From the NCBI RefSeq assembly GCF_030538495.1, contig NZ_JAUNTW010000004.1, positions 153,147-217,146 on the forward strand: a stretch of DNA of 64,000 nucleotides. The letters are read 5' to 3'. The notes beneath the pieces are model-generated. The model saw nothing but the letters and a program-made list of their open reading frames with translations, was not told the DNA's origin and did no database searches. The position numbers and the translations under genes are program-made. Positions 30,317 through 62,726 of this stretch are shown piece by piece; position 1 is the stretch's first letter; every line of letters begins with the position of its first letter. Source of the stretch: Paracoccus sp. (in: a-proteobacteria). Lineage in GTDB: Bacteria > Pseudomonadota > Alphaproteobacteria > Rhodobacterales > Rhodobacteraceae.

Positions 30317-30334
30317 TTTAGACCGATCCAAAGG
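30317..30334 (+). repeat. Phage dyad 2, at the polymerase split
   Basis: TTTAGACCGATCCAAAGG lies between the two polymerase ORFs and supplies the ribosome site of the second. Confidence 0.85.
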
Positions 30335-30344
30335 AACGAGCAGA

Positions 30345-32114: not shown

Positions 32115-32180
32115 AAGTGTTTCCACAAACGGCCTGAATAGAAGGAAGAACCCGGCGTTCATTCGTCGGGTCTTTTCTTT

Positions 32181-45889: not shown

Positions 45890-46813
45890 TTATTGGTCAC
45901 GCTGGGCAGCGAGAAAGGCTGCGGTTACGTCGTCAATGTCGCCGGTGGCTCGGGCCTGTTCGACCAGACGACTTGCGTTTGCTTTGGTGGTGTCGCTGCG
46001 GCTTTCGGGTTTGCCAACAACTTTCTTCGGGGCCGTCACGGCTTTCTTGACGACCGTTTCAGATTTCTTCTGAGCCTGATCGTAAAGCATGGCCTTTCGC
46101 ATCATCACGATGGCGGCTGGGTCCACGATTTCATTCACCGTGGTTTGGTCCATCCCTTGACCGACAGCGTAAGACCGCAGGTCATTATACAGGGTGTCCG
46201 ACCACTCAGGGATTGCCTGACGGATCGCCGGGATAGCCTGTGCAGCGGCTTCGCGGATGAAGGTCTGACGGGTCGCCTGCGCCTGTTCCAAGAAGGACGA
46301 CGCCTCATGGTTCAGGGCGGCGAGTTCAGCTTCAGCGGCTTCTTTATTCGCCTTCAGGTCATTGAACTCCTGAGTGCCTAGCTCCCGATGGGCCGCCCAC
46401 AGATCAACCTTGCTGTATTTCTCAGCAACTTCCTGCGCACGTTTGATCCGGGCGTCGTAAAGCTGGGCAAGGAACATGCCTTGGGCTTCCACGGCCCGGT
46501 TCTGGGCGTGGACATGCTGCGCTGACTTGGCGATGGACGCGCGGTCGGCGTAAAGACGCTCAAGGTCCTTCCGGTTTACCGACTTCTTCTCCTCGCCAAT
46601 GAGGATTTCAACGGTGTCTTCAGGGACTCCCTCAGACGGCTCAGCGTCGGCGTCAGGTGCTTCGCTGGCTTCGCCCCAGCCGCCCTCGTCTTCGCCGCTC
46701 TCCGGGGCATCCTGTGGGCTCTCCGGGGCATCCTGTTCGTCGGTTTCTTCGGCGGACTTCAGGTATGCCTCAACGGCGTCGTCTTCGGTGTATTCTTGAA
46801 TATCGGGGTCCAT
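45890..46813 (-). CDS. Capsid scaffolding protein
   Basis: A 307-residue protein with an acidic N-terminal third (DEQDAPESPQDAPESGEDEG) and a helical remainder (DLKANKEAAEAELAALNHEA, AQKKSETVVKKAVTAPKK) ending in a basic C-terminus, the usual plan of podoviral scaffolds, in which the basic end contacts the capsid. It lies immediately before the capsid gene. The ATG at 46813 follows AGGAGTGTCG. Confidence 0.82.
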   Translation of the reverse strand: MDPDIQEYTEDDAVEAYLKSAEETDEQDAPESPQDAPESGEDEGGWGEASEAPDADAEPSEGVPEDTVEILIGEEKKSVNRKDLERLYADRASIAKSAQHVHAQNRAVEAQGMFLAQLYDARIKRAQEVAEKYSKVDLWAAHRELGTQEFNDLKANKEAAEAELAALNHEASSFLEQAQATRQTFIREAAAQAIPAIRQAIPEWSDTLYNDLRSYAVGQGMDQTTVNEIVDPAAIVMMRKAMLYDQAQKKSETVVKKAVTAPKKVVGKPESRSDTTKANASRLVEQARATGDIDDVTAAFLAAQRDQ

Positions 46814-46821
46814 CGACACTC

Positions 46822-47116: not shown

Positions 47117-49108
47117 TTACGGGTTATAGAAGGCTTTCTGCGTGTCGGCGGCTTCGGCCAAACGCAGTTCTTCCTGATCGACCCAGAAGTCATTCTCGAC
47201 TTTCTGGCGCTTGGTGTCGCTGTCGAAGCGTCGGGTGGCTGTGTCACTCTGAATACGCATACGGTCGGTTTCCGCCTTCATGCGGTCAGTCTCAGCTTTG
47301 GCAGTCATCGCTGTTGCCTGTGCCTTGGCATACTCAATCTGGGTCTTGAGCATTTCCATCTGCAATTCCTGCATCGGATCAGGTTCAGGCGGTTGGACTT
47401 CTTCAGGCGGCGTTAGGAAGGTCTCAAGGTCCTCAACGCCGATCTGCTCCAGACCCCGGCGGATCACCTGATAGCGGCGATCATAGGTGTATTGTGGGGC
47501 CAGCATCGGGTCTTGCGAGAACATGGCATCAATGCCTTGCCACTTCTGGGCTTCACGCTCCCGCTCGCCGTATCCGAGGGTCAACTCAATGGACGCCGCC
47601 GAACGGTGTTTCCAATGTGCCGGGTTCACTTCGGCCTCAACACCAGACAGTTCGACAACCGTCTGTTGGTCCATGTGGTCAACCGCCGTGTTGTAGATCA
47701 GGAAGAACAAGTCCTTCATGAAGACGCCAAAGCGGCGGGCAATGGTCTTGGTCCGCTGTTGGGACGCTGAGATCAACTGTTCGACCATGCCTTCCGCGTT
47801 CTGGGAGGAAATGGCGTCTTTGTTCAGACCTTGGGACAGTTTGGAGATACCCGTGACCTCCTCTTTGTCTTCGTCAATCATTTGGATCAGCGAAAAGACG
47901 TAAGGGTTCAGGGGCGCTTGGGGGATCGCCGCGATACCGTCCAGACGGCGGACGTTGACGATACCACCTAGGCGGTTGTCCAGAAGCTCCGCAGGGTTGG
48001 CTAAGGTGCCGTTCAGGACCTGCTGTCGGGGGTTATTGGTCATCAGCGAGTGGTTGATGATTTGTCGGATCAGGACCGTTCGGGCGTTCTGCACCGGGAT
48101 CACCGCCGCCGCGAAGTTGTCCCCAATGTAGGTGTGCGGGATAGGCAGCGGGACATAGGCCGCAAAAGGCACGACCGACACACGCTCCTTGTCCAAGACC
48201 TCGCCGCCTGCGTAGCTGACCTTCCATAGACGGGCCTTCCCACCACCTTCAAGATCAGCCCGGATGTAGCACTCATAAAAGGCCGCCTCAGCCGTGGCAG
48301 GGTCGTGGCCGTCGTCCATTAGACCCGATCCAATGGAATACATCCGCTGGGACTTTTCGTAATCGAACAGATGGTCTGACGAGGCCCCGTATCGCATCTT
48401 CTCTGCGACGGTCTCACCGTAGGTTTCAACGAACCAACTGCGGGTCTTCAGGCTGCGGTGGCAGACAAAGCGGGCGGTTTGGATGGTTTCTGCGCCCGAT
48501 GCAATCAAGAAGTCCTCGGGCGGGATGGCGATAACCTTGATGCCCTTCTTGTGCGTGAACACCCGGTAGGTTCCCGAATACAGGCCCTCAGGGGTGATCT
48601 CGGTCTCAACGAACTCGTAGCTGTCGTGCTGTGACACGGCGGCGGTAAGCTCTTCAGGCGTCAGCGCCTCGAACTCAAAGTCATCTTCAAGGGTCTCCTC
48701 GTCGTAGAACACCTTCAGAACGCCGATGCGGCCTAACAAGGCGTCGGTGCAGGTGGAATACAGAAGGTCTTCCCCGGCATTGTCCCGGAAGAACACTTGC
48801 TGGGTAAACTCAGTGGCCTGCTTGGCGTCATCCACGGTCTCCCCACGTTCGGGGCGGAAATAGACGATGCGGTTGGAAGCAGAATACGCCTCCAATACGG
48901 TTGAACGCATGGAGTCCACAGAGTCGAACACGTCGCGGCTGACATACTTCGAGTCGCCTTTGTGAAGAGGCTTTGGGGCCTCCCCGCGATAATACGACAG
49001 CACATTACTGCGTTCGCTTGCCAGCTTCGAGTCTGTGAAGTGTTCCGAGTTTGAGATTGCCTTGGCGATGACCGCAGAGATTTCGTCTTTGGTCAGTTTC
49101 TTTCCCAT
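47117..49108 (-). CDS. Portal protein
   Basis: The 663-residue dodecameric vertex protein through which DNA enters and leaves. Its features are YVSRDVFDSVDSMRSTVLEA and DALLGRIGVLKVFYDEE near the N-terminus, the central GISKLSQGLNKDAISSQNAEG, and a long C-terminal helical barrel (TQIEYAKAQATAMTAKAETD, then DRMRIQSDTATRRF). The order terminase, portal, scaffold, capsid supports the call. The ATG at 49108 follows AGGAGAGCT. Confidence 0.85.
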   Translation of the reverse strand: MGKKLTKDEISAVIAKAISNSEHFTDSKLASERSNVLSYYRGEAPKPLHKGDSKYVSRDVFDSVDSMRSTVLEAYSASNRIVYFRPERGETVDDAKQATEFTQQVFFRDNAGEDLLYSTCTDALLGRIGVLKVFYDEETLEDDFEFEALTPEELTAAVSQHDSYEFVETEITPEGLYSGTYRVFTHKKGIKVIAIPPEDFLIASGAETIQTARFVCHRSLKTRSWFVETYGETVAEKMRYGASSDHLFDYEKSQRMYSIGSGLMDDGHDPATAEAAFYECYIRADLEGGGKARLWKVSYAGGEVLDKERVSVVPFAAYVPLPIPHTYIGDNFAAAVIPVQNARTVLIRQIINHSLMTNNPRQQVLNGTLANPAELLDNRLGGIVNVRRLDGIAAIPQAPLNPYVFSLIQMIDEDKEEVTGISKLSQGLNKDAISSQNAEGMVEQLISASQQRTKTIARRFGVFMKDLFFLIYNTAVDHMDQQTVVELSGVEAEVNPAHWKHRSAASIELTLGYGEREREAQKWQGIDAMFSQDPMLAPQYTYDRRYQVIRRGLEQIGVEDLETFLTPPEEVQPPEPDPMQELQMEMLKTQIEYAKAQATAMTAKAETDRMKAETDRMRIQSDTATRRFDSDTKRQKVENDFWVDQEELRLAEAADTQKAFYNP

Positions 49109-49115
49109 AGCTCTC

Positions 49116-50708
49116 CTAGATAGCTTCGAGGTAATATGCCTCAGTGTTGGTGATCGGGTTCCAGACGCCATCGTGGATGTGGTTCACAATAGCCAAGGAC
49201 ATAACGCAGTCATCGTGACAGCCCTCCTCGGCCTCCAGCTTTCCGCTTTCCTTGACGACATAGGTGAGCATTTCGCTGATCGTCGTTTTGTCGTTCAGCT
49301 CGACCTCGCCTTTGCGGAGAGATGCCCTGAGGTCGTCAATGATAAGGGGCTTGGTCTTTGAGTCCGTCCTGAAGCCCAATTGCGGGGTGTCCAGATCGTC
49401 AATCTTGTCTTCGGTGACGTGGGTGAAGACATTGGGATACGCCCAGACCTTATACAGCATCCCGACCGTCAGAAGACCGTGGTTGTTGCTCTCGACGGCG
49501 ATCTTTGCGTTGTTGAACAGTGTCCCCAGACGATACAGAACCTCTGCGAAGTAGTCGGGGTGGACGTGACCACGCCAGACAGCGACCTGACGTTTCCGTT
49601 CGTCCAAGACCTGCGCGACTGAGTAGTCACCGCCCCGGACGCCCATCGCCACGTCCGCGCCGATGTAGTAAGTCCCGCCGGGGTCGATCTCGTCGTAAAG
49701 CAGAAGCTCCCCAACGGGGTGTGGACGGAACTCCGATAGCTCCAGCGCCATGCGGTGCTTTGGACCAGTCAAAAGGTCGGCCCGTTTGGTCAGGGCTTCA
49801 GGATCAAACACAGGCCGACCCGTCGTCAGGAAGGCTTCTTCAGGAACCGCCGGATACTCCTGCTTAAACAGGTCCGGGCCGTTCTGCGCGATCTTACGCC
49901 GACGCCAGTAAAGCTGGGCGTCGTCAAGGTCGAAGCGTGTGGCCAGTGTGTGTTCTTCGGGGGTCCTCTCGAAACCATCGGGCGGCTTTGTGCGGTATTC
50001 AGGATCGAGGAACCACGGGATGAACAGCGGGTAGTAACCGTTGGTCCCATCGACAGCGCCCTTCCACATTTCATAGAAAGGTCCGGTTACGCCGTTGGCC
50101 GTGGACTCAATATAGATTTCTGTATCGTCCGCGTCGGGGATGGATTGCAAAAGACCGTTCAGGTTTTCGCGGGCTGACGACTCTTTCCAAAAAGCCAACT
50201 CAGAAAGGTGGGCGTGGGTGATCGTTTCACCGCGCGCGATGCCGTCACCTCCGGCAGTAGCCACCATGTAAGAGGAATCCAGTTTATCAAAGACAATCTC
50301 CTTTTTGGATGAATAGCTGGTGGATGGCTTCAGGATGGCCGGGGTGTTCTCAAAGAACCGCTTCGTCATGTTGAACAGAGCGGTCGTTGAGTCCGACTTG
50401 TGGGTCACAACGATGGCTTTCTTGGCCGTGTTCTGGGAAACTCGTTGATACAACCTGCCGCCAACGCCTGTGGACAGACCCTGCTGACGGGCCTTCAGGA
50501 TGATGATGCGGACGCGGCCTGTGGCGGCGATCTGGTCGCGGATGGCACGGTCTAACTCACGCTGGGCGTGGTTCAGACTAAAGGGAACGATCTGGGCGCG
50601 TTTGGTTCTGATCTTCAGGGCGTGTCGGCAGTAATAGTCGAAGTCGTCTCGGAGGCGGCGGCGGACGGCTAAAACTGCGTCACGATTCTTCTCCAAGGTT
50701 AAGGTCAA
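49116..50708 (-). CDS. Terminase large subunit
   Basis: The packaging ATPase and nuclease, 530 residues. The Walker A variant is LKARQQGLSTG (about residues 71-81), the Walker B segment THAHLSELAFW and the coupling motif ESTANG. The RNase H-like nuclease has YIGADVAMGVRGGDYS (Asp), AVESNNHG and EGCHDDCVMSLAI (Asp pair). It overlaps the small-subunit gene by 29 bases. Confidence 0.93.
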   Translation of the reverse strand: MTLTLEKNRDAVLAVRRRLRDDFDYYCRHALKIRTKRAQIVPFSLNHAQRELDRAIRDQIAATGRVRIIILKARQQGLSTGVGGRLYQRVSQNTAKKAIVVTHKSDSTTALFNMTKRFFENTPAILKPSTSYSSKKEIVFDKLDSSYMVATAGGDGIARGETITHAHLSELAFWKESSARENLNGLLQSIPDADDTEIYIESTANGVTGPFYEMWKGAVDGTNGYYPLFIPWFLDPEYRTKPPDGFERTPEEHTLATRFDLDDAQLYWRRRKIAQNGPDLFKQEYPAVPEEAFLTTGRPVFDPEALTKRADLLTGPKHRMALELSEFRPHPVGELLLYDEIDPGGTYYIGADVAMGVRGGDYSVAQVLDERKRQVAVWRGHVHPDYFAEVLYRLGTLFNNAKIAVESNNHGLLTVGMLYKVWAYPNVFTHVTEDKIDDLDTPQLGFRTDSKTKPLIIDDLRASLRKGEVELNDKTTISEMLTYVVKESGKLEAEEGCHDDCVMSLAIVNHIHDGVWNPITNTEAYYLEAI

Positions 50709-51396
50709 AGTCGAAGTCTCCTAATTCCGCCTCCATTTCGGCCAGACCTGCTTCCATGTAGTTCTGAACGCTGGACATGATTTTCAGGTTCTTTGCGCGC
50801 TTATGCTCGTAGTCCCTGCCCATACCGCGTTCGCGTGGGGTTTTCGGCTGGAAGGACTCAGCGTCGATGACTTTGTATTCGTCCTTGGCGAGTTCCAAAA
50901 GCCAGTCTTCCGGGGCGTTTGCGTTGATGTTGTGGTTGACGGTTGCGGCTTTGGAATGGGTGTATTGGGCCAGTTCTTTCAGGGCCGTGACCTGTTCCTT
51001 GGGGTTCAAAGCACCAGACCGGACGAGGCACTCCATCAGCCACAAAGGGTTGACTTCAAGTCCCGTGCGTTCGCGGGTGGCGTCATCGAGGAACTTATAG
51101 TTCCCCGGATCAACCATTTTTGTGGCTTCATTCAACCGTGCCGCCACTTCCTGCCGGGACATTCCATATCTCCATTTGCGGGCCTTGAACCCTGCCAGCT
51201 TGCCGGTCAGGGTGTTGGCTAAGTGTTGTTCTTCAGAGGGTGGGGCTTGGGGGTTAAGGTGGGGCCAAAAGTCGATCCCAGCCTCCTCCATGATCCGGGC
51301 CTTAATGTCCTCGTCCTCTAGGTGGGGATATTCGAACCACTCGGTCAGCAAGCGTCCCGTGCGGGTGCAAACTTCAGGGGTGATCGGGGAGGTCAT
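50680..51396 (-). CDS. Terminase small subunit, probable
   Basis: A 238-residue protein directly upstream of, and overlapping, the large subunit. It is helical, with an N-terminal DNA-binding-like region (FKARKWRYGMSRQEVAARLN, PLWLMECLVRSG) and an acidic end (GDFDFDLNLGEES). The assignment rests mainly on position and length. Confidence 0.65.
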   Translation of the reverse strand: MTSPITPEVCTRTGRLLTEWFEYPHLEDEDIKARIMEEAGIDFWPHLNPQAPPSEEQHLANTLTGKLAGFKARKWRYGMSRQEVAARLNEATKMVDPGNYKFLDDATRERTGLEVNPLWLMECLVRSGALNPKEQVTALKELAQYTHSKAATVNHNINANAPEDWLLELAKDEYKVIDAESFQPKTPRERGMGRDYEHKRAKNLKIMSSVQNYMEAGLAEMEAELGDFDFDLNLGEES

Positions 51397-51796: not shown

Positions 51797-54700
51797 TTAA
51801 CTTACAGCGGTTGGTAGCATGGAAGCCGGTTTCGGTTCTACGGCTTTGCGTTCGGGCAGAACACCACCCATAGACTCGAAGACTTCCGGGTCGATGCCGT
51901 TGGCGATCAGGATTTCAACGAAGTAGTTGTAATCCCCATTACCGAGTTCCTGCATCACTTCCAGAACCGTCGCTTGGCCCTTTTCGGCTTGCGCTGGATG
52001 GAACCCGAAGGAGTCATGGATCAGGTTCATGATCTTCAGGTCACCGTCTTCAGACATGCGGCGGTGGGATTCCCGCGCCACATAGGCATCCATCGCGTGA
52101 ATGGCGAAGGCCCCGAACCCCCGGCTGCTTTTCTTGGTCTCGCCTGTGTTGATGCCGAGATAGACCTCACGGCCCTCAAAGGGGACCATGTGACCTTCAA
52201 AGGTCGGCGTCTCCTTCGGCTTCCATTCCAGAACAGCACCATCGGGCAAGGGAACCTTGATGGACGGATGATCCTTCAGGATTTTGGTCAGACTTTGCGA
52301 GAATTGCAGGAACTGTGACGCGCCGGGGTAAGACCGGGCGAAGTCACGGACGGTTTCGCGTTCGAGACGCCCGAAGAACTCAGAGTCTTGAACAGAAATG
52401 ACCGCAGCGTCGGAGTTTCCAAAACCACAGATGCTTTTCCGCTTCCACCGCCCGCCCTTCTTGGTGTCGTCCGTCTCCACGAACCACTTGCCGTCATCTT
52501 TGACCACGCGCCAGCGTCGAATATCGTCAGAGACGTATTCGCCGTCACTGTCGTATTTGGCAATCGACAGTTGCAGACCTTCGGGCGACAGAAGGGCAGC
52601 TTCGCGGGCGCGGGGGATTTGCATAAGACCTGCGGTTTTCCCCACGCCCCACAAGGAAGCGCCGTCGGCTATTTCCTCCAAGGCCGCTTGGAAGGATTTA
52701 GTGCGGGTCTGGGGCGACGTATCATATTGGCGCGTCCCGACAGCCTTCTTGAACACCTTGCGGAGAAGGCTGTTGGGCAGGTCCAGTTCCAGAAGCTCCG
52801 GGACCCGTTGGGCCACCCTCAGCCCTGAATCAAGGTAGGCGTCAGGCGCTGCCGTTCGGTCTGGATCAGCGTTTGGATCACGCGGACTCAAACCCGTCGC
52901 CTCAAGTTCAGGCAGCGATCCAGTCAGAAGACCGGACAACTGCAAGGCGTTGTTCGACCCGTCCAACTGAACAACCCAATCGGTCGTGTAGCTTTGGGCA
53001 ATGTCAGCCTGAACCTCAGGGTCTTGAAGCAAAGCTGATGGCCCCATAGTCTTGGCCTTTTCACGGTGACGGGCTTTCGCCCATGCCGCCATTGAGGCCA
53101 CCTCGTTCGCTACGCCAAGGGCTTGGAACGGCCCTTCAGCGTTCCCTACGATTTCACCCAGACGGGTGGTCTTACCGCCCCGGTCGGTCAGTATATCCCG
53201 ACCGGTTGGGTTGGCTGCCCAATGGATCAGACGTGAAATAGTGTCCCCCTCGAAGATCGCTGCGCGGCGGTCATACGGGGATTTCTTATCGACGCCTAAG
53301 AGGTTGCCAAAGGAGTGGAGCATGTAGTTAAGACCTGAAGGCCCACCCGTCGGGTAACGCTGATCTGTCTTGACTAGACCCTTCATCAGATCGCCCCCTT
53401 GGGAACTGGCCGACCCGTGGCCTGCATAAAGACGCCCACGGTCGTCAACGCTCCATGCCTGATGTGTCGTCAGGTGGCTGCGTTCGCCATCCTTTCCATG
53501 AAGATACAGGATTTGAGACAACGCCCGCAGAGGGGATTCGTCGTGTTTCGGTTTAGGCTTGGTAGTGGACTTGTCCCCTTTCTTCTTCCCCTCATCGACC
53601 ACAGGCCGCAACCAATCCTTAAGAACCCCCGGACGCCCCCCGTTCAGCGCCGCCTCGATCTGACGAAGCATAGCCGAGGAATAGGCGATGGGCCGCTCTT
53701 GCAGGCCGTTGATCGCGTTCAAGATCGGCTGATGCGTGTCGTTGACCTCCGTGGGTTTCTTAAAGGCTTTGTGACGCCCAACCTGCGGGTTATCGACAGT
53801 GAAGGGGGCTTCTGGACCATCCGGGGACGCCATACGCCCAACCATGCGGATTGCCTGTGCGGCTTGAACAGCGCGGTTAAGGTCGGGATCGAGGATTTGG
53901 ACCTTAAGGGTTCTCAGGGCCTTCTTCTTGGCGTCTGTGATAACCTTCCCATCGGACTTCATCACGTCGCCGCCACGGGCCGGTTGGATCAGCTTAATAA
54001 CGCCTTGATTGGCCCACGACGTTAGAACCCCCATGACGGTCTGGAGGGCGTCTGCGCGAGACTGGACGTTTCCTTCAGGCACGTGTTTCTTGATGAAGGC
54101 GTCCGCCAGCATGTTGACCGAAAGACGCTCCGTAGCCAGTTCATAGAACAGCGCCTCAACCCGGCCCGAAGGGGACTTGTCCAGTTGGGACATGCGGTCA
54201 CTCAGGAGGTCGCCATAGGTTTCGGCCAACGCCTTTGCATCTGCGAAAGCGTCGATACGGTCGTCAACCATGTTCTTAAGACTGTTGCGGTTTCCTTTCT
54301 TAGGCTGTGGGCCAACCTTAGGCTCATCCTGCGCCACGGCCTTGGTCGCCGGGTCTGCGTCAAAGCCGAACTCAAGCTGATCGGGGTCGGCTTCACGTTC
54401 CTTCGCACGGGCCTCGAGGTCCTTCAGGATTTCATCGACCGGGCGAACATACTCATAGGGCTTGTTGCTTCCTCCTTGCAGATCAAACGACCCCTGACCG
54501 TTCGCGTCCCAGCTTGCGGGCGCGGCGTTCAGGTTGGCGTGGTGACGCTCCATGAACTCTTTGACCGTCATCTTGCCGGTTTCGTTCTGGGCCTTTACAG
54601 CCTTCTTGCGGGCGCTGAGTTTACGCTCCTTTGGATCAGCCTTAGGGTCGGCGTCTTCGCGTTGGATGCGGTAATCGTTGCCGACCCGAACCAGACCGGA

Positions 54701-56935
54701 GAACTCCTTGGCCCAATGGCTGTAATCCGCCGGGTTCGGGAATAGACGACCAAGGGTGTTTGTCACAAGCTCGTGTCGGTCTGCGTCCGTCATGTCTGGG
54801 CGGTCGATGGCGTTCTTCAAGGCCATCAGCGCGTCGTAGGCGTGGTGGTCTAGGTGGTCTTTCCGGGCCTCAATCGCCGCTACTGTGTTTTGGGCCTGTC
54901 GTGCGCCTTCGCGGGCTTTCTGGGTCCCTCGGTTGTTGTTAATCCCTGTCTTAGATGCATCCAGTTTCTTCAGGATGGCCTCAGGGCTTTTGGCTAAATC
55001 CGCAGCCAGTGCCTTGTTGTAGGAATGGCCGGGGTTGATCCTGTCACGGATCATAGCCTGTAGGTGAACAGCCTCCTCGTTGTCGTTCTTGGTGAACGAT
55101 TTAATATCCGCGCGGAACCGAACAGCCGTCCCATGTGGGATCAGCCCCTCAGACTCCATCTTGGTGAGTTCGTTATAGATTGTCCGAGGGCCTTTACCCG
55201 TGGCTAGTTCCCACTTGCGGTGGCCTTTCTCGTAATCGTTGTGGAGGTCCGTTCGGTCATTGCGGAACATGCTTTCAGTGGCCTGCCAAGCAAGACTATG
55301 CTGTGGACCTTGGGGATCGCGCGGCGGGGTGCCATCAGGCTGTCCGTTGGATGGGTCCAAGGGACCATCACGCATAGCCTGTGCGGCGCGGGCCTTTTCG
55401 ATCAGCGCGTCCATTTCTGAGGTATCACGCGGAGGGATCAGACCCTTTGTGGTGGCGTGTTCGACCGATTCCACATACCGCTTCAGTCGGCTGCGGCGGT
55501 TGGTCAGGTTGTCCAGAAAGCGGGCGGTGCGGTTGACCGCCACCCCACCCGCGAATGTGCCGACGCCCGCAGGTCCAGCCAGACCGTGAAGCGGGATGCC
55601 CATACGCCCAATCCCCGACCGTCCGTCGAAGGGGTCAAGGAGACGAGTCCATTGGTTCAGACCGCCCAGATCGCCTTTGGCGTCGGTGAATTGGGTCAAA
55701 CGCTGAGTTTGCGTCAAGACGTCCATCAGGCGGTAAGCGTCAGGGTTTCCGGGGAAGGACTCACCGATACGCTGGATGGCGCGGTCGGATACAGCGGACT
55801 TCATGTTACCCGACTGGCCTAATGCGGTGTTCACCACAGAGGTTAAAGCATCAACCGAATGGGCGAACCTATCGGCAGGGCCGTCGGTAAGGTCGGCCTC
55901 AAGAGACGCAAGTTGTGCCTCAAGGGCGGGGTCTTTGGCGTCCTTACGCAGGCGCATCGCAAGGATTTTGGCTTCTTCCCGGAGGTCCTTGAGAACCCCC
56001 TTAGCCAGACCCTGCGCGCTGTCCTGACTGTCCGTGGTGTTGACTTTGGCGATCTGGTCGTCCGTGTTTTGGTTGTCGCGGATGCGATCACGCAGGGCTT
56101 GATCGTGGTGGTCGTATCCGTCGTTGTCAACACGGGAGAACAAGGTTCCCGGCTGTCCAGTGACGACGTTAACACCACGTTTAGCAGGGACCGCCACAGC
56201 GTCCATCGACGCCATAGTGCCGACACCCATGATGCCCTCACCGACGGCCTCCTTCATGTCCAGATGGAAGCCGGATTCGGTTCCCAGCGTCTCGCCTGTC
56301 TGCTGGACGACGCTTTGGCCTGCCTCGGTGCCGCCTTCACTACCGGCCCGCCGGAGAGCGCCTTTGCGTCCCAGAGGGATGGTATTCAGCGCGCCAGAGG
56401 CGGCGGCTGTCCCCAGACCTGCCAGCCGGTCGCCTGTGGTCAGGTCTTCGCGTCCGTCATTTTGAGCGCGGGCCATAGCGGTAGGACCGGCGACCTGTGC
56501 GCCCTCAAAGATCACAGGGGCCGCGACGCCCCCGACGATCCCGCCGATGGGGCCGCCCACAGCCGTGCCAACGGCAGCGCCACCTGATCGCATCAGCGCA
56601 GCGCCAGCGAGGTTGCCTAGCTGTTCAGCCCCTGCTTTAGGCAGGTATTCCCAGCCGAAGCCGAGGGGACCGTCGCCGTTCATGAAGCGTCCTGATGCCG
56701 AGTCATAACCGGGCGTGGCCTCGACCAGACCGCGCAGGGTTTGTTCGCCCGGCAGGCCGTAGGCGGCGGCGGTGTCGGCCATGCGTTCGGCGGGTTGGTC
56801 GATGCCTTGCTTGAACGCAGCACCCCAGCCGTTGAAGGGGCCGCTGATGGACTCGTCAATGGGACCGGCTTTTTTCTTCAGGATTTGACTCGCTTCTGCC
56901 TTAGCCTCAGCGAGGATTTCTTCAAGAGTGGCCAT
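51797..56935 (-). CDS. Giant internal virion protein with C-terminal T7-family RNA polymerase domain (virion RNAP-like)
   Basis: This 1712-residue protein lies in the ejection-protein cluster. Residues 107-150 are a Gly/Ala-rich hydrophobic stretch (SGGAAVGTAVGGPIGGIVGG) that could enter a membrane, and the middle is long and helical. From about residue 1060 it follows T7 RNA polymerase: ILNAINGLQERP (T7 VYKAINIAQNTAW), Asp1164-Asp-Arg-Gly-Arg1168 (DxxGR), GGDLMKGLV (T7 GNDMTKGLL), VDKKSPYDRRAAIFEGD (T7 VDKVPFPERIKFIEEN), Asp1325 in LDGSNNALQ (Asp537), Arg1392, Lys1396 and Tyr1404 in RKVFKKAVGTRQY (Arg627, Lys631, Tyr639, same spacing), and IHDSFG with Asp1641 (Asp812). All catalytic residues are present. 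The protein is likely packaged and ejected with the DNA to start transcription, as in phage N4. Virion location is inferred from its neighbours. Confidence 0.88.
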   Translation of the reverse strand: MATLEEILAEAKAEASQILKKKAGPIDESISGPFNGWGAAFKQGIDQPAERMADTAAAYGLPGEQTLRGLVEATPGYDSASGRFMNGDGPLGFGWEYLPKAGAEQLGNLAGAALMRSGGAAVGTAVGGPIGGIVGGVAAPVIFEGAQVAGPTAMARAQNDGREDLTTGDRLAGLGTAAASGALNTIPLGRKGALRRAGSEGGTEAGQSVVQQTGETLGTESGFHLDMKEAVGEGIMGVGTMASMDAVAVPAKRGVNVVTGQPGTLFSRVDNDGYDHHDQALRDRIRDNQNTDDQIAKVNTTDSQDSAQGLAKGVLKDLREEAKILAMRLRKDAKDPALEAQLASLEADLTDGPADRFAHSVDALTSVVNTALGQSGNMKSAVSDRAIQRIGESFPGNPDAYRLMDVLTQTQRLTQFTDAKGDLGGLNQWTRLLDPFDGRSGIGRMGIPLHGLAGPAGVGTFAGGVAVNRTARFLDNLTNRRSRLKRYVESVEHATTKGLIPPRDTSEMDALIEKARAAQAMRDGPLDPSNGQPDGTPPRDPQGPQHSLAWQATESMFRNDRTDLHNDYEKGHRKWELATGKGPRTIYNELTKMESEGLIPHGTAVRFRADIKSFTKNDNEEAVHLQAMIRDRINPGHSYNKALAADLAKSPEAILKKLDASKTGINNNRGTQKAREGARQAQNTVAAIEARKDHLDHHAYDALMALKNAIDRPDMTDADRHELVTNTLGRLFPNPADYSHWAKEFSGLVRVGNDYRIQREDADPKADPKERKLSARKKAVKAQNETGKMTVKEFMERHHANLNAAPASWDANGQGSFDLQGGSNKPYEYVRPVDEILKDLEARAKEREADPDQLEFGFDADPATKAVAQDEPKVGPQPKKGNRNSLKNMVDDRIDAFADAKALAETYGDLLSDRMSQLDKSPSGRVEALFYELATERLSVNMLADAFIKKHVPEGNVQSRADALQTVMGVLTSWANQGVIKLIQPARGGDVMKSDGKVITDAKKKALRTLKVQILDPDLNRAVQAAQAIRMVGRMASPDGPEAPFTVDNPQVGRHKAFKKPTEVNDTHQPILNAINGLQERPIAYSSAMLRQIEAALNGGRPGVLKDWLRPVVDEGKKKGDKSTTKPKPKHDESPLRALSQILYLHGKDGERSHLTTHQAWSVDDRGRLYAGHGSASSQGGDLMKGLVKTDQRYPTGGPSGLNYMLHSFGNLLGVDKKSPYDRRAAIFEGDTISRLIHWAANPTGRDILTDRGGKTTRLGEIVGNAEGPFQALGVANEVASMAAWAKARHREKAKTMGPSALLQDPEVQADIAQSYTTDWVVQLDGSNNALQLSGLLTGSLPELEATGLSPRDPNADPDRTAAPDAYLDSGLRVAQRVPELLELDLPNSLLRKVFKKAVGTRQYDTSPQTRTKSFQAALEEIADGASLWGVGKTAGLMQIPRAREAALLSPEGLQLSIAKYDSDGEYVSDDIRRWRVVKDDGKWFVETDDTKKGGRWKRKSICGFGNSDAAVISVQDSEFFGRLERETVRDFARSYPGASQFLQFSQSLTKILKDHPSIKVPLPDGAVLEWKPKETPTFEGHMVPFEGREVYLGINTGETKKSSRGFGAFAIHAMDAYVARESHRRMSEDGDLKIMNLIHDSFGFHPAQAEKGQATVLEVMQELGNGDYNYFVEILIANGIDPEVFESMGGVLPERKAVEPKPASMLPTAVS
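55345..55363. repeat. Phage dyad 14
   Basis: CGTTGGATGGGTCCAAGGG, inside the virion-polymerase gene, where it reads LDPSN. Confidence 0.75.
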
Positions 56936-56944
56936 TCTTTTTCC

Positions 56945-58837
56945 TTAGTTACTGCCCCAGCTAAACCAGCCTTTTCGTTTAGGAGCTTCTTCTGGAGGGT
57001 CTGACAACGCACCAGCGGGTTGACTCAGTGCGGGAGGCGGAGCGTTTGCAGTCAAGTGGTCTGACCAGATTTGCCGCCTTGTGTCTAAGCTAAGCGATTG
57101 CCACTGCTGACGGGTGTATGCAGTGCCATCTGGAGGGACATGCAGGGGTGTGCTGTGCGGGACACTGTTAGACGAGTCCAATGCAGGGGCAGACGGCTGC
57201 TGGTCTGATAAGGCGCGCGATACGCGGTCGCGTGTTGCTTGAGGCAGCGCCTTCCACTCCTCATTAGACAAACCGCTTCCCACCGGACTAGCCTGCGTCC
57301 CGGAGGATGCTGACCCTTGGTTCGTGAAGGTCGCCGGGGCGTCATGTCCGGGACCCCGTTTACCTCGGGGAATGATATTACCGTCTGCGTCAAAGGGAGC
57401 CTCATGGTCAAACCATTGAAGCTGCGGCCACGCCTGACGCTGACCAGAATACTGACCGTGAAGGGACCGGTAAGAGTTAACGGATCGTTCCAGCAGGATG
57501 CCAAGACGTTCCCTAAGAACGTCAGGGTGTTGGAGATACCCATTTAGGTCGCCACCAATAGCAGCGAGAACCCGCAGGGCGTCTTGTTCGGTCATAACAC
57601 CGGGACCAACAACTTGAAGGCGGAAGCCGCCAATAAGGCTTTCAATGTCACCTTGGGCCACCTTACGCTGAACCTCAGGGTCGTTTAGATCAACACCCCT
57701 GATCGTCTTCTGCATTGACTGTAAGTCTTGCCACAAGCGGCCCGCACCCATAGTTGGGTCGCCATCAAGATACTCAAGGATAGAGTGAATTGACTGAATG
57801 TTGTTGCGCCCGGTCTCAAGGTCCTCTCGCATCTTCACCATGTTGGCGGGACCCGGCATTGCCTTGTCGCCACCGGCATTAGAGCGAGTCACTTGGACAA
57901 TCTGTGAGGCAATCTCAGGGGGTAGTTCTTGCCCGCCAGAGTCAACGATCCGACCATCAGCCGTGTAGAAAAGATCGCCACGGATAGAGCCGTCAGGCAT
58001 TTGGACCGGACCAGCCGGGGTGCGCCGTTGACCAAGGGCAGCGCTGCTGAGACCATTCGTGAATTGGGTCTGTTCCATACGGAACGCATGGTCCCGCTCA
58101 GCCCTTGCCGCTTCCATGTGGGCAGCTTGGCGGTCCTTGATGTCCTGCCGTTCGTTCTGCTTACGCTGAGACAGGACCCCGGCCATGTTCTGACCCGCCG
58201 CTGCCAAACCAGACGCCCAATCGTCACCCGACAGGATGCCCGTCCCCAGCGCCAGTAACGATTCAGCCCGGTCGTTGGTAAGCCACGGGGCCTTATCGTT
58301 CAGCCAGCGGCCCATGGCGGAAGGTTCGTCCTGCGGCGGGGCAGGGAACTGTTGGTCAATCATCCCTGAAAACGCCCCGCTGTCATAGGACGTCGAGGGC
58401 GTAAAGGACGTGCCTTGGACGGGTCCAAAGGAGTTCGCGCCCGCCGGGTTCCCGCCTCCAGCGATCTTCTGGACGTAATCACGGGTTTCTGTGGGAAGTG
58501 ACCCTAGGTCCCCGTCCCACTTGTCTGCGTTGCCCACTCCCCAATTATAGGCAGCCAGCGCGCGGTTTATGTCCCCCGGATACCGGTTCTGCAAGGCGGA
58601 CATATATTGCGCACTGAAGCGGAGGTTGTCCTCAGGGTCTAGGGGGTTGGTCAGAGGGGACACGCCAAACCCCGGCTGTCGGGCCGTGTCCGGCATGACT
58701 TGGCCTAGACCCAAGGCCCCCACGGGACTCTTGGCGTTGGGGTCCCAGCGTGACTCTTGGTTGACCAAGGAGCGGAACAGGGTGGGATCGACGCCGTATT
58801 GGTTGGCGTAACGATCTGCTACTGATTTGAAGGGCAT
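56945..58837 (-). CDS. Ejection protein with lytic transglycosylase domain
   Basis: A 630-residue protein. The N-terminal 130 residues are an SLT domain: LVNQESRWDP (catalytic Glu28), GALGLGQVMPDTA and RALAAYNWG. It would open a hole in peptidoglycan during DNA entry, as the transglycosylase part of T7 gp16 does. The remainder is helical and Gln-rich, ending in a Pro-rich tail. It lies between the repeat-rich protein and the 1712-residue protein, forming a set of three that resembles T7 gp14-gp15-gp16. Start and stop abut those of the upstream gene. Confidence 0.87.
   Translation of the reverse strand: MPFKSVADRYANQYGVDPTLFRSLVNQESRWDPNAKSPVGALGLGQVMPDTARQPGFGVSPLTNPLDPEDNLRFSAQYMSALQNRYPGDINRALAAYNWGVGNADKWDGDLGSLPTETRDYVQKIAGGGNPAGANSFGPVQGTSFTPSTSYDSGAFSGMIDQQFPAPPQDEPSAMGRWLNDKAPWLTNDRAESLLALGTGILSGDDWASGLAAAGQNMAGVLSQRKQNERQDIKDRQAAHMEAARAERDHAFRMEQTQFTNGLSSAALGQRRTPAGPVQMPDGSIRGDLFYTADGRIVDSGGQELPPEIASQIVQVTRSNAGGDKAMPGPANMVKMREDLETGRNNIQSIHSILEYLDGDPTMGAGRLWQDLQSMQKTIRGVDLNDPEVQRKVAQGDIESLIGGFRLQVVGPGVMTEQDALRVLAAIGGDLNGYLQHPDVLRERLGILLERSVNSYRSLHGQYSGQRQAWPQLQWFDHEAPFDADGNIIPRGKRGPGHDAPATFTNQGSASSGTQASPVGSGLSNEEWKALPQATRDRVSRALSDQQPSAPALDSSNSVPHSTPLHVPPDGTAYTRQQWQSLSLDTRRQIWSDHLTANAPPPALSQPAGALSDPPEEAPKRKGWFSWGSN
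57168..57183. repeat. Phage dyad 15
   Basis: TTAGACGAGTCCAATG, inside the transglycosylase gene, reading LDSSN. Confidence 0.7.
58413..58431. repeat. Phage dyad 16
   Basis: CCTTGGACGGGTCCAAAGG, perfect arms, inside the transglycosylase gene, reading GPVQ. Confidence 0.8.
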
Positions 58838-60634
58838 TTACCCGAATCCTTTCATAGCTCCCGCGATGGTCGGGATGGCTCCGACAATCGTTTGGAAGGG
58901 TGACTGACCGGGGACAGTTTGTGTTGACGTGCCGCCGTAATTGCCGCCGATTGTTGCCATGTATTGCTGCGCAATTGCCTGCTGCTGCTGGCTTAAGGCG
59001 AGTCGATTGTTGATCTCATTCTGCTGCTGCGCTTGGAGGACAGAGGCGAAGTCCAATGCCGCTTGGGAGCCTGTCTGGGACATAGCCTGCCCACCCTGCG
59101 CCATGCTCTGGCCCAACTGTGCGAGTTGCGCCTGAAGCGTGGCGTTGTTCTGGAAGCCCTGAAGGGCAGACTGCTGACCTTGAACCGCGAAGTTACCGGC
59201 GGCGGCGTCGGCAGATGCCGCAGCTTGTCGGGCGGCTGACGCGCTGTTCAGACCGTTAAGCTGGTTTCCCAAGGACTGCTGTAGGAGAGCATTTCCTGAC
59301 ACCGTTTGGTCAAACAAACGAGCGTGGGCGTCTTGACCGAACGCTGTGCTATTCGCCGTCTGGTTGAACGCTTGGTTATTCGCAGCCTGCTCAAAGCCTG
59401 CCTTCGTTTGCGTCTGGTCGAAGTTACGCGCGTAGCTTTCGTTAAGCATCCCGACATTTGCTGCCGTCTGGTTGAACGCTTGGTTATTCGCAGCCTGCTC
59501 AAAGCCACCACGGGCTAGTGTCTGATCGAACGCCCGCGCGTTGCTGTCTTGCAGGAAACCGGCGGCGTTGAGCGCAGTCCCAAGCACCGCGTTATTCGCC
59601 TGTTTGTTCCCTAAGGCCGTCCCAAGGCCCTGCTGATAAGCGTTGGACCGCATGGTGGACGAAATGTCCCCGGCCTGTCGCAAAGCGTTTTCGTGGGCCT
59701 TGGACTCCATGAGTGCCGCGCGGGTCGAGTTCATGCCGCCTGCGCCCGAAGCCGCCGCATTGATTTCGGCCTGAGTTCCACGGAACCCCTCGTTGACGGT
59801 GCGGACGGCGGAGTTGATCTGGTCGTTCAGGTATGGATTGTTTGACAGAAGCTGGGCGTCGCTGAGGATACCCTGAGCAGACCCATCACCAAACAGATGG
59901 GACGCCCCCCCTAAGATGGTGTTCCCATTAGCCTGCGCCTGTCCGTAACCCGTGCCGATCTGACGCTGGAGGTCTGATGCTGTGGCACCGGCCTGAGTGG
60001 ACCCTGACGCCGTAAGTCCTGAAAGCTGACCCGCCCCGGACAGCGCGTTATTCAGACCCGCCTCCTGCGCTGCGGCCAGACCGTCCGTGGCCTTTTGAGC
60101 CTGCGTCTGCCCTTGGGTAGTGATGCCCTGCATCTGCTTGATAGCCCCCTGCGCAGACCCGAACCCGGCAGCGGCTTGATTAGCTAACCGGCTAGTCGCT
60201 TGGTGGCCGCTATTGCCCATCTGTTTGGCGATGGTTTGCATCTGACCCGCACCGCCCGAGAGGGACCTTGCATGGCCGCGCTGTGCTTGCGCCGCGTTAC
60301 TGGCCGATTGGGTGACGCCGCTGATGGCAGAGTTTGCCCGGCCTAGAGAGGTCTGCGCTGCGTCAGCCTGTCCAAACAGGTTAGCCCCCGTCTGGCTCAT
60401 CAGGCCCCCTGACCGTGAAGCGTCAAGACCCCCAGACCACCCTTGCTGTATGGCTGCTAGCTGGCCTTGGTTCAGGCCCGCAGTGGGGTTGCCGATGCTG
60501 TTCAGACCTTTCAATGCCTGCTCATAGCCCTGCTGCGCGTGGCTAAAGCCTTGCTTCAGGTAGTCCTGCTGTGGTTCCCACGGTTTTGACTCACTGGTCG
60601 TTGTCTTTTTAGTGGGCTTGAATAGGCCACCCAT
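58838..60634 (-). CDS. Repeat-rich internal virion/ejection protein
   Basis: A 598-residue protein rich in Ala, Gln, Asn and Gly. The start MGGLFKPTKKTTTSES is typical of podoviral ejection or stump proteins. The middle contains 36-residue repeats (AR.FDQT...GFEQAANNQAFNQTA), supported by near-identical DNA. Such low-complexity helical proteins are ejected before the DNA. The gene is preceded by a dyad whose end AAAGGAGATCC is its ribosome site. Confidence 0.7.
   Translation of the reverse strand: MGGLFKPTKKTTTSESKPWEPQQDYLKQGFSHAQQGYEQALKGLNSIGNPTAGLNQGQLAAIQQGWSGGLDASRSGGLMSQTGANLFGQADAAQTSLGRANSAISGVTQSASNAAQAQRGHARSLSGGAGQMQTIAKQMGNSGHQATSRLANQAAAGFGSAQGAIKQMQGITTQGQTQAQKATDGLAAAQEAGLNNALSGAGQLSGLTASGSTQAGATASDLQRQIGTGYGQAQANGNTILGGASHLFGDGSAQGILSDAQLLSNNPYLNDQINSAVRTVNEGFRGTQAEINAAASGAGGMNSTRAALMESKAHENALRQAGDISSTMRSNAYQQGLGTALGNKQANNAVLGTALNAAGFLQDSNARAFDQTLARGGFEQAANNQAFNQTAANVGMLNESYARNFDQTQTKAGFEQAANNQAFNQTANSTAFGQDAHARLFDQTVSGNALLQQSLGNQLNGLNSASAARQAAASADAAAGNFAVQGQQSALQGFQNNATLQAQLAQLGQSMAQGGQAMSQTGSQAALDFASVLQAQQQNEINNRLALSQQQQAIAQQYMATIGGNYGGTSTQTVPGQSPFQTIVGAIPTIAGAMKGFG
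59355..59506 (-). repeat. Tandem coding repeat in the ejection protein gene
   Basis: Two identical 44-base copies (59355-59398 and 59463-59506) are offset by 108 bases, equal to a 36-residue repeat unit in the protein. Confidence 0.85.
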
Positions 60635-60641
60635 AGGATCT

Positions 60642-60661
60642 CCTTTGGATTAGTCCAAAGG
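60642..60661 (-). repeat. Phage dyad 17
   Basis: CCTTTGGATTAGTCCAAAGG, perfect 8-base arms, ending on the minus strand in the ribosome site of the repeat-rich ejection protein. Confidence 0.85.
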
Positions 60662-60958
60662 CAGATACCGGAACATTTCTGCCCACTCCCCTTCTGCGGT
60701 TGTCCGCATGTGGTCGAGCCTGAAGCCTAGCCTTTGGATGAACTTTCTTTTTTTAGGGTCGTGGCTTTCGGTCTGGAAAGCGAAGACAGGGACGGACAGT
60801 GACGACGCGATCAGCCGCAAGTCCCTTCGATATGACTCAAGGACCCGCTTTGTGAACGGGACCTTGGTTGTTGTATGCAGCACGACGCCGAACCAGAGGA
60901 ACTCAAGATCAACCGTGTAGTCAGGCCCAAAGTCGAACGACAGGACGTGATCGGTCAT
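60650..60958 (-). CDS. Small virion-region protein, GNAT-like, T7 gp13-like by position
   Basis: A 102-residue protein (MTDHVLSFDFGPDYTVDLEF...) with VPVFAFQTESHDPKKRKFIQ and RLGFRLDHMRTTAEGEWAEM, resembling the end of a GNAT fold. T7 gp13, just before gp14, has a similar closing pattern. No catalytic role is evident. It overlaps the 54-residue gene before it (ATGA) and precedes the ejection proteins. Confidence 0.55.
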   Translation of the reverse strand: MTDHVLSFDFGPDYTVDLEFLWFGVVLHTTTKVPFTKRVLESYRRDLRLIASSLSVPVFAFQTESHDPKKRKFIQRLGFRLDHMRTTAEGEWAEMFRYLPLD

Positions 60959-61119
60959 TTCTTCAGATACTCCACCACCTCGGTCAGGGCGGCTGTTAGC
61001 TGATCCACCTGTCGCCGGAGTCTTGATAACTCGTCTTCGAGGCGTCTGCCGTCCTGCCCAAGTCGAGGGGGCGGTGCGGGTCGGTTCGGGGTGAGTTCCG
61101 TTGTGGGTTTGAACGTCAT
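60955..61119 (-). CDS. Small coiled-coil phage protein, 54 residues
   Basis: MTFKPTTELTPNRPAPPPRL is followed by a coiled coil (EDELSRLRRQVDQLTAALTE). It overlaps both neighbours by ATGA, a strong sign of coupled translation. It was probably missed by length limits in routine annotation. Function unknown. Confidence 0.6.
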   Translation of the reverse strand: MTFKPTTELTPNRPAPPPRLGQDGRRLEDELSRLRRQVDQLTAALTEVVEYLKK

Positions 61120-62726
61120 CGACGCGCCAGCACCACAAGGTCAACGTCGAACCCAGAGAGCCTGCACGACGAGCCTTCTGGGAACGTGAACCGGATCGAG
61201 ACGTAACGCCCGTTGGTCCTGAAGTTCAAACGCGATGTTGCAACCGGATCAAAGGACGAGACAGGCCCCCACTCTGCGGGCAGCGCGGGAAGGGCCTGCG
61301 CTGTCGTCTGCACACCAACAGCCCCCAAGGCGTCTGGGTTAGCGATCTGCAAGACTAGTGACCGCAAGAGTTTGGTGTCATGAAGTGCAACGCCTAGTTC
61401 GTCAAAATCTGCCATCAGGAGGCTACAGGACGCAGGCCAGATCAAGGCTTGGTCCGCATCGTTGGAAACCGCGCCCCCATTTTCTGGGTCATAGAAGAAA
61501 ACTCCACGGCCCGTCTTTGCGCTGTCCCCTGCGGCGGTTAGCATCAAAGACGACGCGACGTTTGACGCAAAGTTCCAACGCTGTGATAGCTGGTTCCAAT
61601 TAGCCAGCCCGTCCCACGTCACGGCCTTGTCGGACACGCCTTCAGGGTGACTCACGGAAGCGCCACTGGTGACGTTGGGAAGGTCAATGAAGGACCACGT
61701 GTCGGACTCGTAGTTGTAAACCGCAGCTTCGTTACACCCACGCCCGTCGTGGTCAAAAGCTGCGTCTGTGGCGGTCGGGTAGGCGAAGATAACCTCTGAC
61801 TGGCTGGGGTTGCTGAAGACCCGGCAGAGGTGGCGTTGATTGTAGTCAACCCGCGAAAATACACGATGGCGGATGCGTCCTGCGGCTACGGACTCATAAG
61901 ACACACCGTCCGTCTTGATAATATCCGACTCCCCGAAGACGTAGTGGTAGTGTTGGACTTCGGCCACACAGTTCTGGGACATGATCGGCAAGTCACTGAA
62001 CAGACGCTCAAAGGTGAACACGAAGCTCCCACCAACATATCCCATACGCCACACCTCGTTGGTCCCATAGATGATGAAGTGGTCGCCCAGCGTCAGGCCA
62101 TCGACTAGCTGTCCGTCACAATTCAGGACGGTTTCGCCAGCGAGTGAGTTCGTTTCGGCTGTATCCCAGCGAGGCCGGACGCCGGACTGAATGGCGTCAG
62201 ACCACTTGACCATGCTTGGATAAGCTGTGGCGGTCTTTGTTACGTTAAGGGCGACAAGAAAATCCCTGTAGTGTCTCAGGGCTGCTGTCGATTCGTTCGT
62301 CTGCCATCCGGGAATGACCGAGTAGCGTGACTCAGCGCCTGCAAGCGAAAGCGGTGGACCAGACTGCGTGTTTACATAGGATACGTTTCCGACGCGCGTG
62401 GCTATGGGAACGCCGACGACCGGGTGTTTGGTCGCTGGGGACACGTCATGCACCGCCCCGGCTTTGATCCGCTTCATCGCGCCGTCTTGATACAAAACAG
62501 TCACTGACTTGTTGGATCGACTTTCTGAGTCGTCAGTGGCAAGCACGGGATAGGCTGTATGACTGACTGACAAGACCGGCGGTTTGAACACAGGCGAGCG
62601 CGAAACACCGGACCCGTTAAAAGATACATTACGCGCTTCAGCAAACACCCCCAAGGGTAAGTCGGGGGCGGCGCGGTCGGTGACGACGCCTTTTAGTCCT
62701 AACTCACGGACGGGGATGTTAACCAT
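61116..62726 (-). CDS. Tail or head-tail structural protein
   Basis: A 536-residue, beta-rich protein. MVNIPVRELGLKGVVTDRAA and LGVFAEARNVSFNGSGVSRS near the start, and GRYVSIRFTFPEGSSCRLSG then FDVDLVVLARR at the end, are typical of podoviral tail nozzle or stabilisation proteins (the T7 gp12 position). Many short repeated strands (for example HYHYVFGESDIIKTDGV) suggest a propeller. It precedes the ejection-protein genes. Confidence 0.65.
   Translation of the reverse strand: MVNIPVRELGLKGVVTDRAAPDLPLGVFAEARNVSFNGSGVSRSPVFKPPVLSVSHTAYPVLATDDSESRSNKSVTVLYQDGAMKRIKAGAVHDVSPATKHPVVGVPIATRVGNVSYVNTQSGPPLSLAGAESRYSVIPGWQTNESTAALRHYRDFLVALNVTKTATAYPSMVKWSDAIQSGVRPRWDTAETNSLAGETVLNCDGQLVDGLTLGDHFIIYGTNEVWRMGYVGGSFVFTFERLFSDLPIMSQNCVAEVQHYHYVFGESDIIKTDGVSYESVAAGRIRHRVFSRVDYNQRHLCRVFSNPSQSEVIFAYPTATDAAFDHDGRGCNEAAVYNYESDTWSFIDLPNVTSGASVSHPEGVSDKAVTWDGLANWNQLSQRWNFASNVASSLMLTAAGDSAKTGRGVFFYDPENGGAVSNDADQALIWPASCSLLMADFDELGVALHDTKLLRSLVLQIANPDALGAVGVQTTAQALPALPAEWGPVSSFDPVATSRLNFRTNGRYVSIRFTFPEGSSCRLSGFDVDLVVLARR

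Follow-up and report, generated by a model that had tools for sequence, protein, structure and literature searches.

We analysed a 64,000-nucleotide stretch of the 2.67-Mb genome of a Paracoccus sp. (contig NZ_JAUNTW010000004.1, positions 153,147 to 217,146; hereafter the window), in which a prophage carries, among its virion genes, the gene of a candidate virion RNA polymerase (vRNAP). A preceding interpretation of the letters alone, here called the sequence-only reading, had proposed that this protein holds a complete T7-family RNA polymerase (RNAP) domain and that a small phage ejects it together with its genome. The gene and its two parts are as follows (aa, amino acids).

51797..56935, minus strand: candidate vRNAP, 1712 aa, with profile matches; relatives occupy the same gene slot
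51800..53758, minus strand: T7-type RNA polymerase part of vRNAP, about residues 1060-1712, with catalytic Asp1325, Lys1396, Tyr1404 and Asp1641
54296..56935, minus strand: N-terminal half of vRNAP, residues 1-880, without known family

The reading frame begins with ATG and stays open for 1712 codons without an internal stop. The motifs DDRGR (residues 1164-1168), LDGSNNALQ (1324-1332), R1392-x3-K1396-x7-Y1404 (motif B) and IHDSFG (1639-1644), as well as the stretch VDKKSPYDRRAAIFEGD (1215-1231), were all found where the sequence-only reading had placed them, and the polymerase part is recognisable from about residue 1150. The C-terminal part matched PHROG 414 'RNA polymerase' (E 3e-20) and Pfam RNA_pol (22.7 bits, E 5e-5, just above the cut-off of 22 bits); vRNAP also matched PHROG 2051 (E 2e-8). 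A hidden Markov model (HMM) built from seven cytoplasmic T7-type RNAPs scored 33-46 bits for four virion-cluster proteins; we quote bits since the E-values refer to a panel of 16 sequences. The polymerase domain of vRNAP is thus confirmed as an observation that goes beyond chance.

Relatives of vRNAP came from IMG/VR. Whole-protein patterns retrieved none, and fragments and alignments yielded five contigs (L004, L005/L006, which are one contig, L011, L031 and L032); such scans depend on an exact peptide pattern, and members can be missed. As the L031 and L032 vRNAP genes are 96.7% identical, the relatives represent four separate lines besides that of the window. Their vRNAPs are 31-40% identical to the window protein, and the full-length members (window, L006, L031 and L032) measure 1708-1712 aa, the other two being cut by the contig end. 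PHROG 414 matched all four relatives tested (E 1e-22 to 3e-29; L032 was left out). Elsewhere, tblastn of the window vRNAP against 50,697 phage records gave no relative at 1e-5, no fused protein was found in assembled genome contigs, and searches of 61, 394, 385 and 398 genomes, the last three sets being samples of larger groups, found it in the window's own genome only. Weak partial matches fell in frames of 562-910 aa (G077, G240, G737, G877, G1036 and G1140); the two of these six that were inspected (L007 and L008) proved to be ordinary T7-type RNAPs, not fused vRNAPs. The plasmid collection gave a weak match in Shinella (E 0.08). In tblastn, the query P0003 matched 43 phage records at E <=0.1 and 223 at E <=10, of which the best 60 were listed. 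Gene length, checked in K1E (875 aa) and in RHph_X3_9 (827 aa), was that of an ordinary RNAP in each.

We mapped active-site residues with an alignment of the six vRNAP members and a second one of four vRNAPs with the enzymes of T7, Roseobacter CRP-113, SB2, ICP3, K1E, Illi-1, S-RIP2, N4 and prophages. The counterparts of T7 R425, K441, K472, D537, Y571, R627, K631, Y639, H784, D787, H811 and D812, which are catalytic or substrate-contacting residues of T7 polymerase, were identical in all six members. These include the catalytic Asp pair (T7 D537 and D812; vRNAP D1325 and D1641) and motif B (T7 R627, K631 and Y639; vRNAP R1392, K1396 and Y1404). The T/DxxGR motif (T7 D421-R425) fared differently: its final Arg is present in six of six, its first Asp in one of six, and DDRGR occurs in the window protein only, the other five carrying G-x-N-x-R (first Asp to Gly, first Arg to Asn). 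Of the four motifs that the sequence-only reading had put forward for a survey, three kept their key residues Asp1325, Arg1392/Lys1396/Tyr1404 and Asp1641 throughout, and DDRGR its last residue alone. Loss of catalytic residues in homologues, which that reading had named as evidence against itself, was not seen, and T7-type catalytic residues in an ejection-cluster protein recur in five relatives with conserved gene order.

The structural match to single-subunit polymerases that the same reading had asked for was also found: in a structure comparison, the palm-fingers fold of the predicted vRNAP model matched single-subunit RNAPs. Some long structural alignments reach the promoter-binding N-terminal domain (T7 residues 35-113), with a root-mean-square deviation of 13-18 Å and where the model is poor. 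The 50 structure matches listed contain no N4 vRNAP entry, a listing that excludes nothing. Among viral structure models, 26 rows at E <=0.001 comprised 15 named RNA polymerase, 10 unnamed and one Gp033. Two of these rows may be further members: A0A6J5NLE6, which covers the second segment of a long protein (E 2.5e-16 at 24% identity), and A0A7S5FRK7, of 1463 aa.

The protein might instead be a structural ejection protein that retains a degenerate, inactive polymerase fold. Such a history would suit the long divergence from T7-type enzymes (33-46 bits), the changes in some glycines near the active site and the near-loss of DDRGR, but six members, down to 31% identity to the window protein, share every catalytic and substrate-contacting residue that was tested. 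Selection argues in the same direction: in the one close pair, L031 and L032, the nonsynonymous and synonymous rates (dN and dS) are 0.015 and 0.097 over the gene and 0.020 and 0.141 in the polymerase part, giving a dN/dS of about 0.14 there. We regard an inactive fold as very improbable.

The genes around vRNAP encode virion proteins.

44986..45870, minus strand: major capsid protein (SU10_MCP family, by family match)
45890..46819, minus strand: scaffolding protein (PHROG)
47117..49171, minus strand: portal protein (PHROG; phage matches)
49116..50708, minus strand: terminase large subunit (PHROG; relatives)
50680..51396, minus strand: 238-aa protein between vRNAP and terminase (counterpart in five of five relatives)
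56945..58837, minus strand: transglycosylase (SLT) ejection-type protein, 630 aa (Pfam SLT, E 3e-24; PHROG 342/2013; Cys-free)
58838..60634, minus strand: probable ejection protein, 598 aa (PHROG 4287 'DNA ejection protein', E 9e-4; Cys-free)
60650..61144, minus strand: 164-aa protein (counterpart in L031 and L032)
61116..62726, minus strand: virion structural protein, PHROG 3287 as in PaP3 (PHROG and PaP3 match)

The transglycosylase next to the vRNAP gene is as the sequence-only reading had described it (Pfam SLT, E 3e-24). Judged by blastp against the window proteins, as far as each contig reaches, the gene order around vRNAP is kept in the five relatives. Upstream, L006, L031 and L032 carry the PHROG 3287 protein, an ejection-type protein and a transglycosylase, and L031 and L032 also the small protein of the 60650 type; L004 and L011 start within the vRNAP gene. 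The transglycosylases are similar to that of the window over 327-358 residues. The ejection-type proteins (400, 317 and 317 aa) resemble the 598-aa protein over 88-94 residues only; the one in L031, similar over 88 residues, matches PHROG 4287 at E 5e-17. Ejection-type neighbours are therefore present in all four genomes that show that side of vRNAP. Downstream, the 238-aa-type protein and terminase follow in five of five relatives, the portal in four of five (L006 ends in the terminase) and the scaffold in L031.

Cysteine content sets vRNAP apart from cytoplasmic polymerases. The window protein has 1 Cys in 1712 residues and the six vRNAPs together 2 in 9271, whereas eight cytoplasmic T7-type RNAPs, including RNAP2, a second polymerase of this prophage (see below), have 89 in 6769. 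The polymerase part alone has 1 in 833, with about 11 expected from the cytoplasmic enzymes (P 2e-4). At the rate of 11 early or replication genes (49/3513) vRNAP would hold 24 Cys (P 9e-10); if the rate is taken from 10 further genes for virion and packaging proteins (18/3295), the expectation drops to 9 (P 9e-4), each P being the probability of one or none. The transglycosylase and the 598-aa protein have zero Cys, as do their counterparts in L006, L031 and L032, and so do N4 gp50 (0/3500), gp51 and gp52 and T7 gp15 and gp16; T7 gp14 has 1 in 196 and T7 gp1 has 12 in 883. By analogy with N4 gp50 and T7 gp15/gp16, the near-absence of Cys in vRNAP fits ejection. As the capsid and scaffold proteins are also Cys-free, we take the depletion as support for ejection, not proof.

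These data bear on the possibility that vRNAP is an ordinary late RNA polymerase that is not packaged and lies in the structural operon by chance. Intact catalytic residues would suit such an enzyme. An ordinary late enzyme accounts poorly for about 880 extra N-terminal residues, for Cys depletion that extends into the polymerase part (1 in 833 versus about 11, P 2e-4) and for ejection-type neighbours in four of four genomes, and we consider it improbable.

The N-terminal half gave no Pfam match, E 0.03-0.05 only against PaP3 orf19 and T7 gp16, and one chance-like NCBIfam match, for the L031 protein only; tblastn of the first 378 residues found nothing in phages. A membrane-compatible N-terminal segment, proposed by the sequence-only reading, corresponds to moderate hydropathy peaks and nothing stronger: the peaks, near residues 122-142 and 447-467 and at similar places in L006 and L031, reach 1.1-1.6, and as sequence predictions they make no case for transmembrane helices.

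The sequence-only reading reported vRNAP without mention of RNAP2, which is encoded on the opposite strand together with a set of T7-style promoter-like repeats. Positions past the window are given in continued numbering (position in L002 plus 60853).

29330..30316, plus strand: RNAP2 N-terminal part, 328 aa as called (PHROG 414 positions 8-245)
30309..32114, plus strand: RNAP2 C-terminal catalytic part, 601 aa (PHROG 414 positions 245-816, E 2e-151; ordinary T7-type motifs)
32120..32146 (position 32124), plus strand: T7-style promoter-like repeat, first copy, directly after the RNAP2 stop codon
64813, 64862 and 64910 (continued numbering), minus strand: three tandem copies before the late operon
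64979 (continued numbering), plus strand: divergent copy toward the genes leading to integrase and RNAP2

The RNAP2 halves are separate genes that overlap at AATGACTGA, with the junction at PHROG 414 position 245; they may form a true two-subunit enzyme or reflect a frameshift, and the true start of the first may lie further in. The repeat CACAAACGGCCTGAATAGAAGGA has five prophage copies, with 0, 0, 0, 1 and 3 mismatches, and its CTGAATAGAAGGA resembles the T7 start CACTATAGGGAGA. The window itself holds the first copy only, where 0.01 would be expected by chance for the 22-base core. In the late genes that the relatives' contigs cover, L004, L005, L006 and L011 have no convincing copy (best 7 mismatches) and L031 and L032 none within 6 mismatches. 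From the copy at 64979, an injected enzyme with this specificity would be able to initiate the early operon; alternatively, RNAP2 would feed back on its own expression there.

Two further features stand near these repeats and genes. Between the divergent promoters and the early genes lies a non-coding stretch (L002 about 4170-4400, or about 65020-65250 continued) rich in CCTTAGG/CTTAAGG-like words, reminiscent of the repeats at T7 genome ends; it may mark the packaging site. A hairpin, CCTT(N)GA...TC(N)AAGG, recurs in the window at 32181, 33971, 39993, 44593, 47086, 51765 and 60642 and in relatives (L004 8930, L005 11798 and L011 2822). Six window sites stand 6-18 nt ahead of an ATG and overlap the ribosome site. 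A loose form of the pattern has 18 prophage sites (36 strand-wise); shuffled sequence gave 5.75 by the strand-wise count, and 26 kb of host DNA had none. Of the 18, the listed ones only were judged to stand before or between genes. We set the hairpins aside as N4-style promoters, a judgement based on the ribosome-site overlap and their presence in late genes too; they are possible RNA-processing or translation-control sites.

The prophage adjoins a gene for DNA gyrase subunit A (26484-29237). In the plasmid collection, the host DNA of the window matches Paracoccus and Ruegeria best, which makes a host in the Rhodobacteraceae likely. Leftward genes encode the proteins of head, tail and ejection, and rightward genes RNAP2, single-stranded DNA-binding protein (SSB), primase/helicase, DNA polymerase and ligase. 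A protein with a predicted dATP/dGTP diphosphohydrolase N-terminal domain (39198-39698; PF18909, E 2e-24) is Cys-rich, with 7 in 166 residues. At the left end lies one further feature.

29312..29321, no strand: possible attL core ATTGAGTATT, 10 bp, with a second copy at 70344 (continued numbering), just past the integrase

By sequence ATTGAGTATT is probably the attachment core, 10 bp alone being little above chance. Its copies delimit 41,042 bp. This length is uncertain, since it counts 100 N that begin exactly at the window end (L002:3148 onward; 64001-64100 continued), next to a direct repeat of 93 bp (63831 and 63924). Repeats of the GGACCCACTA type at 29409 and at 69161-69177 and 70264 (continued) flank the integrase gene (L002:8343-9380) and the left end, and are possibly integrase arm sites. 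The phage is much smaller than N4, as the sequence-only reading had held: an integrase-bearing prophage of about 41 kb that also encodes a second T7-type RNAP. Its particle genes are not T7-like, as had been supposed, and are nearest those of PaP3-type and 76-kb Escherichia podoviruses, at about 27% identity (26-28% for the portal and the PHROG 3287 protein, among the best 25 of 294 and the best 40 of 266 matches, respectively).

We consider it probable that vRNAP is a virion RNA polymerase that is ejected and then transcribes the earliest phage genes, among them the one for RNAP2. Its C-terminal half would be a T7-type polymerase with catalytic residues, and its N-terminal half would serve packaging and passage through tail and envelope. 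The protein would share the head with the transglycosylase and the 598-aa protein, pass the tail in unfolded form and refold inside the cell; after it had transcribed the first genes, RNAP2 would take over and read the replication and late genes from T7-style promoters of the phage. The analysis itself shows the fold match, identical tested catalytic residues across six members, a gene position within the ejection cluster, low Cys content, low dN/dS in one pair, RNAP2 and the promoter-like repeats; packaging, ejection and activity we infer.

Several results weigh against this reading or against the polymerase assignment itself. Single-sequence phmmer against PDB chains gave T7 RNAP at E 0.14 or worse only, which is why relatives of vRNAP were sought, and NCBIfam gave no match to vRNAP. 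The 598-aa protein's own match to ejection proteins is weak (E 9e-4), and low Cys is partly general to this phage's virion genes (0.55%). DDRGR is mostly lost across the six members, and in the four vRNAPs aligned with T7, Gly542 is replaced by Ala or Ser and Gly640 by Asp, Ala or Ser; the activity could therefore be altered. The AF2 model has a mean predicted local distance difference test (pLDDT) score of 60.3, and much of its first 485 residues lies in long stretches below 50. Nor did we identify promoters that would form a set of their own for the virion enzyme.

In a packaged and ejected protein, the polymerase part could also serve chiefly to draw the genome into the cell, as a motor, leaving expression to host RNAP and RNAP2. 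N4 offers a precedent, as its vRNAP transcription is proposed, in the available part of a preprint, to pull the genome into the cell (PMC12633501), and with RNAP2 at hand a second transcriber looks redundant. A motor nevertheless needs an active polymerase, which makes this a variant of the ejected-polymerase reading; something must also make RNAP2, and the plus-strand copy at 64979 faces the integrase and RNAP2 genes. A role chiefly as a motor seems to us unlikely.

On the broader proposal our opinion is evenly balanced: a small temperate LUZ24-like lineage would have made a T7-type RNAP an ejected enzyme independently of N4, in a two-polymerase relay in which the injected enzyme starts without host RNAP and makes the second, which takes over at shared or related promoters. 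Which polymerase uses which promoter in this relay we infer. If the reading is right, a half-size vRNAP in a temperate phage of about 41 kb would be a compact model for polymerase packing, tail threading and refolding, and the ejected single-subunit RNAP solution would have arisen more than once. The N4 group has known virion RNAPs of the single-subunit kind, but their huge size hampers mechanistic study, and the ejected-polymerase trick has so far been tied mainly to larger phages such as N4. The near-complete loss of Cys from a polymerase domain that would otherwise hold about 11 is a simple sequence signature and could help to find other ejected enzymes.

Our literature search, with subscription papers mostly outside it, gave size-based guesses and virion RNAPs like those of N4 and of jumbo phages, but no account of a small podovirus with a T7-type RNAP inside an ejection protein. 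In the accessible portions of the sources, a vRNAP of StenR_269 is inferred from size, lack of Cys and helices only (PMC10747016), an F116-like phage protein and N4 gp50, in its C-terminal part, have a domain in common (PMC5217972), LUZ24-like prophages are treated without mention of a virion RNAP (PMC10386132), and a vRNAP is given for N4-like phages only (PMC10783043).

Among known systems, N4 gp50 is likewise a large Cys-free ejection protein that combines a single-subunit RNAP domain with additional domains and whose gene stands among those of other ejection proteins; an ejection-cassette location and near-freedom from Cys are common to N4-type vRNAPs and the window protein, and N4 too has a second phage RNAP (gp15/gp16; RNAP2 here). 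Membership of the N4 (Schitoviridae) vRNAP family, in shortened form, would suit the shared idea and the similar cassette, the large vRNAP and the 644-aa and 150-aa proteins of N4 all being Cys-free. With one N4 sequence, however, no sequence relation was found by hhalign (no match to gp50 in the polymerase region; E 0.17 in another region) or the T7-type HMM (-1.0 bits for N4 mini-vRNAP versus 33-46 bits here), the window protein is half the size, and its portal and structural proteins are nearest other podoviruses; we regard such membership as extremely unlikely. N4 gp50 has 3500 aa with the RNAP in the middle (residues 998-2103; PMC12633501, in the part available) and a 70-kb genome, whereas the window vRNAP has 1712 aa, the RNAP at its C-terminus and a prophage of roughly 41 kb; the 1708-1712 aa of the four full-length members fall outside the N4-type range of 2,842-3,820 aa (PMC10654107, accessible part). 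The ejected polymerase would thus work like that of N4 but lies, by sequence and size, outside the N4 family.

The LUZ24/PaP3-like podoviruses (Bruynoghevirus) and the 76-kb Escherichia podoviruses, which we take to be of the Kuravirus type, are relatives by portal (27-28% identity) and PHROG 3287 protein (about 27%), and the LUZ24/PaP3-like module shares the terminase-portal-scaffold-capsid order. PaP3 has no RNAP annotated in region 1-24248, and its 1056-aa virion protein near the end of the structural genes is not clearly related to the N-terminal half of vRNAP. The portal matches listed include Sulfitobacter records; Sulfitobacter phage pCB2047-A, a podovirus of the same bacterial order, has an integrase and a portal of the same group but no RNAP among 72 annotated features. 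In Roseobacter phage CRP-113 (Autographiviridae), the integrase-RNAP-SSB-primase order is like that of the end-joined prophage, but its RNAP is one gene, unlike the split RNAP2, and the phage is not among the vRNAP tblastn matches. crAss-like and jumbo phages carry RNAPs of the cellular type in the virion, unlike the T7-type vRNAP. Sequence and predicted fold assign the catalytic domain of vRNAP to the type found in T7 gp1 and the Autographiviridae RNAPs; T7 gp1 is encoded with early genes and has its ordinary counterpart here in RNAP2, whereas the vRNAP domain lies behind about 1000 residues in the structural cluster.
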